In this document: piece after piece, positions 24,059-28,993 of the stretch
Numbering within the stretch: the first letter of the stretch is position 1
How the letters are laid out: each line of letters starts with the position of its first letter
Assembly: GCA_030550025.1 (NCBI GenBank)
Contig: JAUQQC010000001.1
Location: forward strand, 248,001-312,000
Length of the DNA: 64,000 nt
Direction of reading: 5' to 3'
Source: Acidobacteriota bacterium
GTDB taxonomy: Bacteria > Acidobacteriota > Blastocatellia > HR10
Notes under the pieces: generated by a model
What the model saw: only the letters and a program-made list of their open reading frames with translations
The model's database searches: none
What the model was told of the DNA's origin: nothing
Program-made: the position numbers and the translations under genes

Positions 24059-25188
24059 GGTAACTGCGCCACGACTTCGACGATCTCCTCCAGCGTGTTG
24101 TACAGATGAGGGGAGATGCGCAACCGTCCCAAACGCGCCGAGACGATGATCCCGCGCTGCTCCAGCCGCGCGGCCAGCTCCTGGGCTGAGAAGCGCGGGT
24201 GCGTGAAGCAGAAGATGCCGGAGGTCTCGCCCGGGCGCCGCGAGCTGACCACCCGATACCCTTTCGCCTGGAGCCGCTCACACAATTCTCGCCCGAGGAC
24301 GGCCAGATGCTCCTCGATCCGTGAGATCCCCACCTCGAGCAACAACTCGACCGAGGCACCGAGTCCACAGAGGCCACAGACGTTGGACGTCCCCGATTCA
24401 AAACGGAGCGCTCCCTCGCGATAGGTGAGATCGTAGGTCAGCTCCTCCGCCAGGATCGAATCCCTCCAATTTCGCACGGACATCCACCCGACGAGCATCG
24501 GCTCCAAGCGGTCGAGCACCCGCGACGAGACGTAAAGGATGGCTGCGCCTTCTGGGCCGAGCAGCCATTTATGGCCATCGGCCGCGAACGCGTCCACGTG
24601 GAAGCGTTCGACATCGAACGGAAGCGCGCCGAGCCCTTGAATGGCGTCCACGACGAAGAGGATGTCCCGCCTTCGGCAAAACTCTCCCAGTCGTTCCAAG
24701 TCCATGCGGAATCCGCTGGCGAATTGGACGAAGCTCACGGCGAGCACGCGCGTGCGGCGATCCACGAGCGCGAGTAGGTCCTCCAGCTCAATGCGCCCAT
24801 CGCGCTCCGGCGCCAGACGCAGCTCGACGCCATAGGTCCGAAGCCGCATCCACGGATAGACGTTGGCTGGGAATTCGCATCCGGCCGTGACGACATTCTC
24901 CCCCTCTCGCCACCGGAGCCCATTGGCGATGACCGAGAGTCCATCGGAGGTGTTGCGCATGAAGGCGATCTCCTCGGGGCGCGCGTTCACCAAGCGAGCC
25001 ACGTGCTGGCGCGTTCGCTCGATCGCCTCCCACCATTCGGCCACCTTCACGGTCCCATGTCGCATGACCTGCTCGGCTTGGCGCGTCATCGCTTCGACCG
25101 TCGGTCGAGGCAAGGGCGAGATGGCGGCATGGTTCATGTAAATGTAGCGCTCTGTGACCGGGAAGAGTTGTCGGATCGCGTCGTTCAT
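24055..25188 (-). CDS. PLP-dependent aminotransferase, class V (cysteine-desulfurase-like)
   Basis: A 377-residue class V aminotransferase fold protein. The PLP Lys is in A-A-D-G-H-K-W-L-L-G-P, preceded by the cofactor-binding Asp in F-V-V-D-A-I-Q-G. The N-terminus holds M-N-H-A-A-I-S-P-L-P, common in isopenicillin-N-epimerase-like and SufS-like proteins. The loop Cys typical of cysteine desulfurases is not evident, so an aminotransferase, epimerase or lyase role is more likely. It overlaps both neighbours by 4 nt (TGA/ATG), so it is coupled to the asparaginase-type gene upstream, pointing to amino acid metabolism. Confidence 0.88.
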   Translation of the reverse strand: MNDAIRQLFPVTERYIYMNHAAISPLPRPTVEAMTRQAEQVMRHGTVKVAEWWEAIERTRQHVARLVNARPEEIAFMRNTSDGLSVIANGLRWREGENVVTAGCEFPANVYPWMRLRTYGVELRLAPERDGRIELEDLLALVDRRTRVLAVSFVQFASGFRMDLERLGEFCRRRDILFVVDAIQGLGALPFDVERFHVDAFAADGHKWLLGPEGAAILYVSSRVLDRLEPMLVGWMSVRNWRDSILAEELTYDLTYREGALRFESGTSNVCGLCGLGASVELLLEVGISRIEEHLAVLGRELCERLQAKGYRVVSSRRPGETSGIFCFTHPRFSAQELAARLEQRGIIVSARLGRLRISPHLYNTLEEIVEVVAQLP

Positions 25189-26219
25189 GTCCCCTCAAGT
25201 CGAAAACATGGTCGAACGACTCCGACGACCATGCCTCGATGATTTTTCACCTCTCCGCTGTAGTAGGCCGATAGCTTATCAAGGGCTGCGCCCTCGAGCA
25301 ACCTAAGCTGTCGCAAGACCTCCAGCACGACGAGATTCCGGGCGCGGCGCTCATCGCCGTCCTCGATCTTGATGGCGATGCCCGCCCCTTCGGGAAACCG
25401 TGAGCATGGGAAAATGCCGAGCGCATAGATGCCTTCGGCGCCGGCTTTGGCGAGCACGCGCCCGCCGGTCTCGCGCAGGAGATCGGTATCCAAGCGACGG
25501 CGTGTCCCGCCCACCATCTCCGGATACTCGCGCATGGCGCGCGTGACCTCGGCGATCGCAGCGCACAAGGGCGCTTCGAGGCCAGCGGCCTCCGGATTCG
25601 CCAGACGGGCGTAGGCCAGCGCCATGCGCTCCAACGGGAGCGCGAACGTGGGCGCACTGCAGCCGTCCACTCCGATGCAAATCTCCGACACGGGCAGATC
25701 CACCAGTCGCGCGAGCGTTCGCCGAATCTCCTGTTGAACGGGATGCTCGGGATCGAGGTAGCGCTCGATGTCGCTCTGCCAGAACCGGGCGAGCGCGAGC
25801 ATCCCGGCGTGTTTGCCCGAGCAGGCGTTATGTAACGGCGTCACGCCCTCTGGACCTAAGCATCGCGCCGTCTCCACGTCGAAAGGGGGATGGAGCCCGC
25901 ACTGAAGCGCCGACTCGTGGAGGCCGATCTTCCGAAGGAGCTGCGCAACCGTCTCTACATGCTGCAGTTCACCACTGTGGGAGCCACAGATGAGAGCCAA
26001 CTCCCGTGGCGTGATCCCGAAATGGCGCACGGCGCCACTGGTCACCAACGGCAGCGCTTGAATCGGCTTGGCCGCCGAGCGCAAGTAGGTCACGAAGTGG
26101 GGATCTCCGAGGTTGAAGAGCTTCCGCCCGTGCGGATCAGAGACGACGAGCATCGCGCGATGGCGCGATTCCATAAGAGAGCCTCGCATGACTTCGACGA
26201 CCACCGGCGCCGCATCCAT
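25185..26219 (-). CDS. L-asparaginase II family protein
   Basis: A 344-residue protein of the thermolabile L-asparaginase II family (Rhizobium etli AnsA type, unrelated to E. coli AnsB). Family landmarks are V-E-V-x-R-G, E-S-x-H-R at the N-terminus, R-S-A-A-K-P-I-Q-A-L-P, C-G-S-H-S-G-E, N-x-C-S-G-K-H-A-G-M and G-V-D-G-C-S-A-P-T-F. It should hydrolyse asparagine or a related amide. The start is uncertain: ATG at 26219 gives the conserved length; a second ATG at 26270 adds 17 residues. It is transcribed divergently from the AmiE-NamZ fusion. Confidence 0.9.
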   Translation of the reverse strand: MDAAPVVVEVMRGSLMESRHRAMLVVSDPHGRKLFNLGDPHFVTYLRSAAKPIQALPLVTSGAVRHFGITPRELALICGSHSGELQHVETVAQLLRKIGLHESALQCGLHPPFDVETARCLGPEGVTPLHNACSGKHAGMLALARFWQSDIERYLDPEHPVQQEIRRTLARLVDLPVSEICIGVDGCSAPTFALPLERMALAYARLANPEAAGLEAPLCAAIAEVTRAMREYPEMVGGTRRRLDTDLLRETGGRVLAKAGAEGIYALGIFPCSRFPEGAGIAIKIEDGDERRARNLVVLEVLRQLRLLEGAALDKLSAYYSGEVKNHRGMVVGVVRPCFRLEGT

Positions 26220-26378
26220 CGGCAGAAGGGTACCAAACCCATTCGGAGACGGCAAGGAGAGTCGAAGCATCCCCCCACGTGGGCGCGCATTTCGCGTCGC
26301 GAGCGGTTGCGTGCGGACGAGGGCATTCGGTATCTTCCGGCTCTCGAATGAGTCAGCTCTTCGTCGGGGAGGAGGACG

Positions 26379-28775
26379 ATGACGCGATGGGTGCGGGGTT
26401 TGGGCATGAGCCTGATACTCGGCTTGAGCAACACGGGGGTCGGTGCTCCGACGCCGCGTCAGATGGACGCTCCGCTGCCGATCGTCTCCCCGGAGACGGT
26501 CGGGATGTCGGCGCGACACCTGGCGCGCATCGAGGAGGTCGTCCAGGAGGCGATCGCGCGTCGGCAGTTGCCCGGCGCCGTCATCCTCGTCGCGCGTCAG
26601 GGGCGCATCGTCTATTGGCGAGCGTTCGGCTACCGCGCTCTGGAGCCTGAGCGGATTCCGATGACCCGCGATACCGTTTTCGATCTCGCCTCGCTCACGA
26701 AGGTCGTGGCCACTGCTACCTCGGTGATGCTCCTGGTCGAACGCGGGAAGATTCGGTTGGGCGATCCCGTCGCTCGCTATATCCCCGAATTCGCGCAAAA
26801 CGGAAAAGAGCGAATCACCATCGAACACCTGCTCCTGCATCGTGGTGGACTCATCGCCGACAATGACTTGGCTGATTATCGCGATGGTCCGGAGAAGGCG
26901 ATGGAGCGGATTTACGCGCTGGGGACGGTCGCCGAGCCGGGCACACGCTTCATCTACAGCGACGTCGGGTACATTGTGCTCGGCGAACTCGTGCGCCGCG
27001 TCTCGGGCCAGCGTTTGGACGAATTCGCTCGCGAGAATATCTTCCGTCCCCTTGGCATGACGGAGACGACGTTCACCCCCACCGGGGCGCTGCGCCAGCG
27101 GTGCGCGCCCACGGAACGCCGCGAAGGGCGATGGATGCAAGGCGAAGTGCATGATCCGCGCGCCTATGCCCTGGGCGGCGTCGCTGGTCATGCCGGCCTC
27201 TTCTCGACTGCGCGCGATCTGGCCATCTATTGTCAGATGATCCTCAACGGTGGGGGATTTCGCGGCGTGCGCATCCTCAGTCCATTGGGCGTGCGACGCA
27301 TGGTGGAGAGCCGCGGCCTCCCGTTTCAGGAGATGCGTGGTCTTGGATGGGACATCAACACCGGCTACTCCTCCAACCGCGGCGATCTCTTCCCAATCGG
27401 ATCCTTCGGCCACACAGGGTTCACGGGGACGTCGTTCTGGATCGATCCGACGAGTCAGACGTTCGTCATCTTTCTGAGCAATCGCGTCCATCCGGATGGT
27501 CGCGGCGATGTGACGTCGTTGCGCGGACGCGTGGCCTCGATCGTCGCGGCGGCGATCCAGCGCCCGCCCCTGCCGGAGTTGTGGCCCACTCCGCTGACGA
27601 TCCAGCGGGAAGTCGAGCGTCTTCGCGTTCGGGAGAGTCTCGAGACGGCCACCGTGCTCAACGGCATTGACGTCTTGCGCCGCGATGGCTTTCGCCTGCT
27701 CGAAGGCCGACGCGTCGGAGTGATCACGAACCATACGGGACGCGCTCGCGATGGGACGAGCACGATTGATCTGTTGGCGCGTGCCCCCACTGTGACGCTT
27801 GTGGCGCTCTTCAGTCCCGAACACGGCTTGCGCGGACAGGCCGACGAACCCGTGGGGGATACGGTGGATGAGAAGACGGGACTCCCCGTCTACAGCCTCT
27901 ACGGGCCGCGGCAACGACCGACGGCCGAAATGCTTCGCGGTCTGGATACGCTCGTCTTCGACATCCAGGATATCGGCGCACGGTTCTACACGTACATCAC
28001 GACAATGGGATATGCCATGGAAGAAGCCGCCGCGCGCGGGATCCGCTTCATCGTGCTCGATCGCCCGAACCCGATCAACGGGCAGGACGTGGAAGGTCCT
28101 GTGGCCGATCCCGACGCGCTCTCGTTCACGGCGTATCATTCGATCCCCATCCGGCACGGGATGACGATCGGCGAGCTGGCGCTCCTGTTCAATGCGGAAC
28201 GAAAGATCGGGGCTGATCTCCACATCGTGAGGATGGAGGGGTGGAAGCGCGAGTACTGGTTCGATCAAACCGGACAAGAGTGGGTGAATCCGTCGCCCAA
28301 CATGCGGAGCCTCACGGCGGCAGCGCTCTATCCGGGTATTGCGCTTCTGGAGACGACGAACGTCTCCGTGGGGCGGGGAACGGATCGGCCCTTCGAGCTG
28401 TTCGGGGCGCCGTGGATGGACGGACGACGCGTGGCCGAAGAGCTGAATCGGCGCGGGATCCCCGGCGTACGCTTCGTTCCCATTCGGTTCACTCCCCGGG
28501 CGAGCACGTTCGCTGGAGAGGAGTGTGGAGGTGTGGCCATCATCATCACTGAACGCGCGGCGGTGCGACCGGTGCGCCTGGGAATCGAGATCGCCGTCGT
28601 CTTGCACCGGCTGTATCCTGAGACGTGGCGGATCGACGCCTTCGGACGTTTGCTCGCTCATCGCCGAACGTTGGAGTTGCTCAAAAGTGGCGCCGATGCC
28701 GATACGATCGAACGCGCGTGGCAGGCGGAGTTAGAGCAATTCCGACACATCCGCCAGCGGTATCTGCTCTATTGA
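26379..28775 (+). CDS. AmiE-like (beta-lactamase fold) and NamZ-like (DUF1343) fusion, muropeptide recycling
   Basis: A 798-residue secreted protein joining two enzymes. After a signal peptide (about 1-23), residues about 40-400 are a serine beta-lactamase-fold hydrolase with S-L-T-K (S-x-x-K) and Y-S-D-V-G-Y. Residues about 425-798 are DUF1343, with G-V-I-T-N-H-T-G, S-P-E-H-G-L-R-G, F-D-I-Q-D-I-G-A-R-F-Y-T-Y and R-P-N-P-I-N-G. In Bacillus subtilis, neighbouring genes encode AmiE (MurNAc-L-Ala amidase, beta-lactamase fold) and NamZ (exo-N-acetylmuramidase, DUF1343). The fusion would trim peptidoglycan fragments in the periplasm. GGGGAGGAGGACG precedes the ATG. Confidence 0.88.
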   Translation: MTRWVRGLGMSLILGLSNTGVGAPTPRQMDAPLPIVSPETVGMSARHLARIEEVVQEAIARRQLPGAVILVARQGRIVYWRAFGYRALEPERIPMTRDTVFDLASLTKVVATATSVMLLVERGKIRLGDPVARYIPEFAQNGKERITIEHLLLHRGGLIADNDLADYRDGPEKAMERIYALGTVAEPGTRFIYSDVGYIVLGELVRRVSGQRLDEFARENIFRPLGMTETTFTPTGALRQRCAPTERREGRWMQGEVHDPRAYALGGVAGHAGLFSTARDLAIYCQMILNGGGFRGVRILSPLGVRRMVESRGLPFQEMRGLGWDINTGYSSNRGDLFPIGSFGHTGFTGTSFWIDPTSQTFVIFLSNRVHPDGRGDVTSLRGRVASIVAAAIQRPPLPELWPTPLTIQREVERLRVRESLETATVLNGIDVLRRDGFRLLEGRRVGVITNHTGRARDGTSTIDLLARAPTVTLVALFSPEHGLRGQADEPVGDTVDEKTGLPVYSLYGPRQRPTAEMLRGLDTLVFDIQDIGARFYTYITTMGYAMEEAAARGIRFIVLDRPNPINGQDVEGPVADPDALSFTAYHSIPIRHGMTIGELALLFNAERKIGADLHIVRMEGWKREYWFDQTGQEWVNPSPNMRSLTAAALYPGIALLETTNVSVGRGTDRPFELFGAPWMDGRRVAEELNRRGIPGVRFVPIRFTPRASTFAGEECGGVAIIITERAAVRPVRLGIEIAVVLHRLYPETWRIDAFGRLLAHRRTLELLKSGADADTIERAWQAELEQFRHIRQRYLLY

Positions 28776-28993
28776 GCGCGCCTGACGAACGGGCCTCGCG
28801 CTTCCTTCGGGAGCTGTCCCAACACTGGCTCTGACGTCTTGCGTCCGCGTTCGGTGCGGTCGCAGTCCGCATCGGGGCGCATTGGGAGCGAGCGTGCGCC
28901 TTCACAGCAAGCAAGTTGAGTGTTCCTGCGGCTCTCGCATTCCTGGGGGCGACAGCTCGCTCTTTCCACGGGAGCGCCATCGTCGGGAGAGGA

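Follow-up and report, generated by a model that had tools for sequence, protein, structure and literature searches.

The DNA considered here, called the window throughout, is a stretch of 64,000 nucleotides from contig JAUQQC010000001.1 of an Acidobacteriota bacterium (assembly GCA_030550025.1, class Blastocatellia), and the subject is a gene on its plus strand, at 26379-28775, that joins a serine hydrolase domain of the beta-lactamase fold to both domains of a NamZ (DUF1343) protein. The 798-residue translation contains no internal stop, and Pfam and the open frame agree with an earlier note on this DNA in finding a single chain with a signal-like start, an S-x-x-K beta-lactamase-fold domain and a full DUF1343 domain. 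The features of the gene are as follows.

26379..28775, plus strand: AmiE/YfeW-like serine hydrolase-NamZ fusion gene, 798 residues (open frame; Pfam; 75 full-length relatives)
26379..26450, plus strand: putative signal peptide, residues about 1-24 (by eye; hydropathy 1.61; residues 1-28 under 50 in the predicted local distance difference test, pLDDT)
26532..27509, plus strand: serine beta-lactamase-fold domain, residues 52-377 (PF00144, 268.6 bits)
26691..26702, plus strand: S105-L-T-K108, presumed nucleophile motif (S-x-x-K), with S105, T107 and K108 invariant
26955..26963, plus strand: Y193-S-D195 motif, with Y193 and D195 invariant; YSD also occurs in Escherichia coli YfeW
27411..27419, plus strand: H345-T-G347, with H345 and G347 invariant
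27576..27638, plus strand: interdomain linker, residues 400-420, most of it with pLDDT below 50
27714..28313, plus strand: NamZ N-terminal domain, residues 446-645 (PF07075, 284.7 bits)
27819..27821, plus strand: E481, presumed catalytic Glu of the SPEHG motif, invariant; Glu also in the solved structures 4K05 and 4JJA
28326..28772, plus strand: NamZ C-terminal domain, residues 650-798 (PF20732, 170 bits)

The PF00144 score compares with a cut-off of 27 bits, and the two NamZ matches, both over their cut-offs, span profile positions 1-202 of 203 (NamZ_N) and 2-152 of 152 (NamZ_C). With E-values from 8e-50 to 4e-85 and 75 full-length relatives at 48-90% identity, chance is ruled out as an explanation of the fusion. 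Those relatives and the window protein make up a residue alignment of 76 rows, drawn from 80 loci of which five were left out, four because they are incomplete in their records and one (L073) because it is broken in frame. Invariant in the first domain are S105, T107, K108, Y193, D195, H271, H345 and G347, and in the NamZ part E481, H482, D528, Q530, D531, R535, Y537, D561, R562, N564, E599, E658 and R666. The Glu of the PEHG motif, E481, is presumably the catalytic residue, as it reportedly is in Bacillus subtilis NamZ, and H345-T-G347 stands where class C enzymes have K-T-G. Loss of DUF1343 active-site residues had been named beforehand as an outcome that would speak against the proposed activity; the presumed catalytic residues are instead invariant in all 76 rows.

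An AlphaFold2 model of the fusion has a mean pLDDT of 91.6 and a predicted template modelling score (pTM) of 0.57, with residues 1-28 and most of 400-420 below 50. We read this prediction as two well-defined domains joined by a flexible linker; a pTM of 0.57 carries no claim on channelling, either for or against. The best solved Foldseek matches are the DUF1343 proteins 4K05 (template modelling score 0.90 by target) and 4JJA (0.86 by target), which are the closest solved relatives of the NamZ part by sequence as well as by fold. These Bacteroides fragilis proteins, single-domain unlike the fusion, have the same fold as its C-terminal half and the same PEHG motif.

A survey across genomes, which the earlier note had proposed, finds the fusion to be widespread in relatives. 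NamZ_N was matched in 150 of 199 genomes drawn from the phylum, and among 31 class genomes in which a NamZ match was placed, 21 fusions were confirmed by both domain matches; frame length alone marks three more as fusions (G149, G202 and G205), a shorter frame is all that six others show, and the match in G209 is a fragment at the end of its contig. In a genome-collection sample consisting of the best 80 of at least 535 confirmed relatives, both domains lie in one frame in all 80, a result that is partly by construction, since the ranking used likeness to the whole fusion. By record titles these 80 are mostly Acidobacteria, Blastocatellia, Planctomycetes or Verrucomicrobia, with two proteobacterial records (L069, L085) and a few labelled only "bacterium"; the nearest among the relatives listed is "Bacterium HR10" (88% identity in the collection scan, 90% in the alignment), which is unclassified at NCBI. 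Twelve plasmid records, including Burkholderia and Cupriavidus, contain a match over 80% or more of the query, and eight haloarchaeal records are among the 12 best plasmid matches. Taken together, the phylum and class surveys and the 80 best relatives rule out the idea that the fusion is special to the window genome.

The architecture is in fact already known, and the window protein adds a further case. The same domain pair in the same order, DDPept-DUF1343 (PF00144-PF07075, YP_439122.1), appears in a table of a 2008 survey (PMC2605481), and a 797-residue Burkholderia savannae plasmid protein of the same architecture is named "exo-beta-N-acetylmuramidase NamZ domain-containing protein" at NCBI. 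In that plasmid record a gene for a DUF4015 putative glycosyl hydrolase (L150:6595-7872) overlaps the start of the fusion gene, and may be a further partner. A triple fusion with a GH3 glycosidase was considered and rejected: the long frames (more than 1,200 residues, up to 1695 in the phylum) are stop-to-stop lengths, and the one of the class that was opened, that of G201 (1210 residues; L140), is an ordinary fusion preceded by a long open stretch.

The genes found near the fusion in relatives point to catabolism of N-acetylmuramic acid (MurNAc). Neighbours in relatives of the class, with families assigned from Pfam and NCBIfam matches of the G025 copies, include a LysR regulator, a BadF/BcrAD kinase, MurQ, an SSF symporter and a GH3 gene. 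MurQ scores over its cut-off in 17 of the 25 class genomes drawn, and in six of the 17 (G025, G038, G075, G086, G105 and G204) no more than 10 kb separates it from the fusion, the other 11 having the two on different contigs; by our own arithmetic, chance would give well under one such case. Twenty fusion loci were examined outside the window, with MurQ in the fetched stretch of 12, some other partners in two more (L122, L138) and none in six, and the partner-free six include G201, G210 and G207, from the window's genus and family. Within the flanks of the 80 best loci, which are at most 4 kb and often cut, an SSF symporter was found at 29, MurQ at 26 (weakly at L038, with 28% identity), a BadF kinase at 20 and GH3 at 7; most of the 26 loci with MurQ are planctomycete records.

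The serine hydrolase domain resembles E. coli YfeW (PBP4B), with 35% identity over 344 residues in a pairwise comparison (188 bits). The two have in common the motifs DxASxTK, YSD, GxVHD, GHAGLFS and GHTG, a set that is not complete in AmpC, in AmpH or in four of the five other lactamase-fold paralogues of the window genome, the fifth (L109) having been left out of the motif comparison. The B. savannae fusion departs from the set in three motifs and two haloarchaeal serine hydrolases in two (YSC, GNAG), which argues that the set is not rigid. The gene yfeW directly follows murQ-murP in E. coli K-12, in the same operon; the protein is single-domain, and PF07075 has no match in the E. coli control genome. 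The best score of the window domain against a class C beta-lactamase model is 56.2 bits, compared to a cut-off of 415 (NF033085).

It is probable, in our judgement, that the fusion is an exported two-step enzyme that acts at an end MurNAc, first as an amidase and then as a muramidase, in turn with NagZ, and that the sugar is then taken up, phosphorylated and passed to MurQ. This proposal has its basis in the domains, the conserved residues, the partners in the genome and the clustering in relatives. The protein would be exported to the periplasm and act on the non-reducing end of peptidoglycan fragments. NagZ would first take off the terminal N-acetylglucosamine (GlcNAc); the N-terminal serine hydrolase, by way of an acyl-enzyme involving S105, K108 and Y193, would then cut the stem peptide off the MurNAc thus exposed, leaving a bare sugar for the C-terminal NamZ domain to free. 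The order NagZ-AmiE-NamZ is reportedly that of the B. subtilis enzymes. Free MurNAc would presumably be taken up by the sodium symporter, phosphorylated by the BadF-type kinase and converted by MurQ to GlcNAc-6-phosphate.

A crude signal rule (the best 12-residue mean hydropathy upstream of the domain, with a limit of 1.6) was passed by 82 of 85 fusion frames, including the window copy, a count that may be too high in that the rule scans the entire open frame upstream of the domain. The N-terminus of the window protein, MTRWVRGLGMSLILGLSNTGVGA, resembles a Sec signal by eye.

Several observations weigh against the proposed pathway. The hydropathy of the window copy is barely above the limit for export. 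The fusion adjoins no MurQ, SSF symporter, kinase or NagZ in the window genome or in three relatives from its genus and family, eight of the 12 class loci with a nearby MurQ come from one genus, and some of the regions were fetched because clustering had already been noticed. The GH3 gene of the clusters scores 167.2 bits against the NagZ model, under the cut-off of 207. The likeness shown for the N-terminal domain is to E. coli YfeW, itself not an assayed amidase. Even there, the best NCBIfam model (PBP4B/YfeW, NF002968) gives 200.8 bits against a cut-off of 385, so that the domain is not filed as PBP4B despite the common motifs and the 35% identity. In the lactamase-domain tree, which has long branches and 10 of 23 inner branches open, YfeW is placed next to the fused domains with weak support (69/53); the latter do not form one clade and need three label changes, which leaves room for a single origin as well as for several, and the NamZ tree requires two for its fused group. 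The best solved folds for the first domain are esterases, namely EstG (7u1b) and the family VIII enzyme 4ivi. Finally, the literature searched yielded no functional study of the fusion, and no activity is known for any such protein. The earlier claim of a periplasmic amidase and exo-muramidase acting in a coupled fashion is thus supported in part. An exported enzyme with both activities fits best with the full NamZ profiles, the invariant residues and the clustering in relatives with MurQ, symporter, BadF kinase and NagZ; the amidase part is tempered by the likeness to YfeW, the PBP4B score and the EstG-like folds, and the coupling by the very low confidence of the linker and the pTM of only 0.57.

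The esterase folds raise the possibility that the N-terminal domain is an esterase of the family VIII/EstG type, acting on a different wall or envelope substituent, for example an O-acyl group of the sugar, so that the fusion couples de-esterification to MurNAc release. EstG and 4ivi are the best solved matches in sequence as well as in fold, and serine hydrolases of this fold are generally known to switch substrate easily. We nevertheless regard this as unlikely, given that the full YfeW motif set is present, including GxVHD and GHAG, and that the PBP4B model outscores the next, esterase-type NCBIfam model by 200.8 to 95 bits; the ranking of solved folds cannot decide the matter, because no solved AmiE-type amidase is among the structure matches listed. 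In a second alternative the domain acts as low-molecular-weight penicillin-binding proteins do, as a D,D-carboxypeptidase or endopeptidase that trims stem peptides while NamZ takes the sugar. The name of the closest NCBIfam model, penicillin binding protein PBP4B, is in keeping with such an activity, as is AmpH, a protein of the same fold annotated as a D,D-carboxypeptidase/endopeptidase. However, AmpH lacks the VHD and GHAG motifs, the clusters contain genes for MurNAc catabolism, and a trimmed MurNAc would stay peptide-bound and should not be accepted by NamZ; this alternative appears a little less likely still. A third notion, that the protein is used to scavenge or prey on the peptidoglycan of other organisms and not to recycle the wall of its own cell, takes its cue from haloarchaeal plasmids on which the same two families lie beside NagZ and the anhydro-MurNAc kinase AnmK, but it is quite improbable for the window organism, a bacterium that presumably has its own peptidoglycan, and the two uses are in any case compatible.

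The partners required by the proposed two-step pathway can be located in the window genome, which is 98.7% complete. Contig 3 holds MurQ (381.5 bits, over cut-off) and contig 2 a GH3 gene of the cluster type. Contig 23 carries, about 118 kb from the fusion, a cluster of amino-sugar type (L153:2864-10758) with two SSF symporters, a diaminopimelate decarboxylase-type gene (TIGR01048, 320.2 bits, over cut-off), a BadF kinase, a SIS gene that is GlmD-like and below cut-off, and a LysR gene; one of the SSF symporters there is 55% identical to the copy in the G204 cluster. With MurQ, GH3 and the cluster of SSF and BadF genes in separate places, the parts of a MurQ-type route are thus present in this genome and scattered. 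The AnmK profile matched nothing in the 25 class genomes (the control matched in five of 14 named genomes), and the AmpG profile matched nothing in the window genome (the control matched in five, over cut-off in two). Ordinary as it is in its lineage, the fusion marks a MurNAc route widespread in Acidobacteriota and Planctomycetota, in which the fused amidase-muramidase is joined by MurQ, a sodium symporter and a sugar kinase; the class is one in which the AnmK search, and the genome one in which the AmpG search, gave no match. Should the protein work as proposed, it would be a single-chain module carrying out two consecutive steps on one sugar, and would be easy to assay.

There are parallels to known routes of MurNAc use. 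The ybbC gene of B. subtilis is now called namZ. The earlier description of AmiE and NamZ as separate neighbours in B. subtilis is right as to their sharing one cluster and needs amending as to adjacency, since the published gene order is amiE-nagZ-ybbC, with the NagZ gene between the two (PMC5061867). The same two activities are expected in the AmiE-NagZ-NamZ system (ybbE-ybbD-ybbC, in the murQRP cluster) as in the fusion, and MurNAc use is likewise based on MurQ (PMC5061867), a likeness drawn by description and not by sequence. In B. subtilis these are three separate genes and the transporter, MurP, belongs to the phosphotransferase system, whereas here there is one chain, with an SSF symporter and a BadF kinase in relatives. 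Uptake of free MurNAc followed by a kinase and an etherase has a published case in the murTKQ route of Tannerella forsythia (PMC10465942, PMC7670621). A comparable domain pairing is seen in RmNag3 of Rhodothermus marinus, described as a peptidoglycan-type exoglycosidase fused to a beta-lactamase-fold domain and equipped with a signal peptide, as is presumed for the window protein; it differs in that the glycosidase is GH3 and not NamZ and in that the order is reversed, with the lactamase domain C-terminal (PMC6987092).

Two leads are worth following, a second kind of NamZ that carries Gln in place of the presumed catalytic Glu, and the haloarchaeal clusters. In the NamZ tree, standalone copies from the class together with others group in a clade of 20 rows (support 100/99) that excludes the fused ones, and the position of E481 is Gln in 19 of the 20, the exception (L009) branching outside the main clade. 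A larger set has 63 rows from 62 loci, namely 62 standalone rows, one a contig-end fragment, and one fusion; the E481 column holds 48 Gln and 15 Glu, with Gln in 48 of the 62 standalone rows. These 48 rows were termed Q-type by that Gln, so that the counts for other residues within the group are informative and the Gln itself is not. Their motif is FGPQHG...QDNM[IV]E, every one of the 48 carries Pro at 643 and a Glu in the P491 column, and nearly all of the other conserved positions are retained, with P480, H482, D528, R535, D561, R562, E599, E658 and R666 kept in all 48. By the hydropathy rule 46 of the 48 are without a signal-like stretch. Lack of a signal does not imply Gln, for the Glu is kept in eleven standalone rows, the contig-end fragment included, that have no such stretch either. 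(The labels "exported" and "cytoplasmic" in the NamZ tree were set by eye, including those of nine planctomycete copies that have no hydropathy figure.)

A Q-type copy is present in all 21 class genomes with a confirmed fusion, and at nine planctomycete loci (L035, L039, L041, L042, L046, L047, L057, L064 and L066) a standalone NamZ of this type directly follows the fusion, with MurQ and BadF further along in most. This retention argues that the Q-type is not a decaying copy. It also occurs in five class genomes without a fusion frame (G051, G063, G096, G123 and G197), and hence does not depend on the fusion. Two of these genes are located as follows.

L112:8454-9614 (contig 10), plus strand: Q-type NamZ of the window genome
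L135:13453-14697: further Q-type example

The neighbours of Q-type genes are mostly unrelated housekeeping genes, as in the window genome (Obg, a nucleotidyltransferase, a SPOUT methyltransferase and a DksA-type protein); sugar-salvage genes accompany them in a few lineages. At two loci from the window's order (L135, L167) the Q-type lies beside SSF and BadF clusters, and at four others (L189, L193, L195 and L196) it lies beside an APH-family kinase and a nucleotidyltransferase. The best NCBIfam model for the kinase is AmgK, with 128.4 and 104.8 bits in the two tested against a cut-off of 550; for the nucleotidyltransferase a mannose-1-phosphate guanylyltransferase model ranks first and MurU second, with 87.3 and 99.8 bits against a cut-off of 250.

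A tentative scheme, which we hold to be possible and somewhat doubtful, is a two-NamZ system in which the exported Glu-type fusion frees MurNAc outside and the standalone, mostly signal-less Q-type works inside, either as a phosphorylase or as a binding or sensing protein. As a disaccharide phosphorylase it may use phosphate in place of the lost base and yield MurNAc-1-phosphate, a product that would suit the AmgK-like kinase and MurU-like nucleotidyltransferase found beside it at the four loci. Alternatively, it may bind or sense MurNAc-GlcNAc. It could also be that the Glu gained at the P491 column makes up for the lost one, in which case the Q-type is possibly an ordinary muramidase. If the Q-type is a phosphorylase or sensor, the NamZ family would gain a biochemical role new to it, one that ties wall turnover to the salvage of UDP-MurNAc.

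Haloarchaea have no murein of their own. On the four haloarchaeal plasmids that were opened (L148, L149, L160 and L161), genes for a serine hydrolase and a DUF1343 protein nonetheless occur in one stretch in every case, accompanied by NagZ and the anhydro-MurNAc kinase in three and by a creatininase-family gene in all four. Pfam confirmed the families of these clusters on the Halorussus limi copies; it gave no family for one gene of a haloarchaeal cluster, so that only the Burkholderia gene mentioned above is DUF4015. Judged by gene content, the clusters are a possible peptidoglycan-scavenging pathway. The H. limi cluster also encodes an Amidase_2 protein with a twin-arginine-like start. The main text of a 2025 PLoS Biology paper on archaeal peptidoglycan hydrolases (PMC12352652) does not contain the terms NamZ, DUF1343, NagZ or Halorussus.

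Within the window, the genes flanking the fusion on both sides are on the minus strand (asparaginase, class V aminotransferase, ABC transporter, YicC, sugar transferase and glycosyltransferase), so the fusion gene is probably transcribed alone. A scan of 26150-28990 for promoters and terminators gave no promoter-like site and one terminator-like site, not above shuffled sequences. The nearest neighbour, which lies outside the system, is the following.

25185..26198, minus strand: L-asparaginase II gene, divergent from the fusion (PF06089, 368.7 bits, residues 822-1150 of a long minus-strand frame)

The long frame, of 1158 residues at 25185-28661 on the minus strand, runs antisense to all of the fusion but its last 114 bases. 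It was rejected as a real gene: only its C-terminal part, from about 26198 downwards, matches a family, and its GC content by codon position in the overlap (0.77/0.49/0.67) mirrors that of the fusion (0.67/0.49/0.76), unlike the asparaginase part (0.70/0.47/0.75). Codon-position GC favours the plus strand as coding in the overlap, and the antisense frame is likely an over-long extension of the asparaginase II frame.

One further match to the fusion was encountered in a 7.6-kb record from human faeces labelled "Bacteriophage sp." (MT837132.1, 2869-5240), which matches 89% of it in two pieces and is perhaps bacterial DNA in a phage collection.

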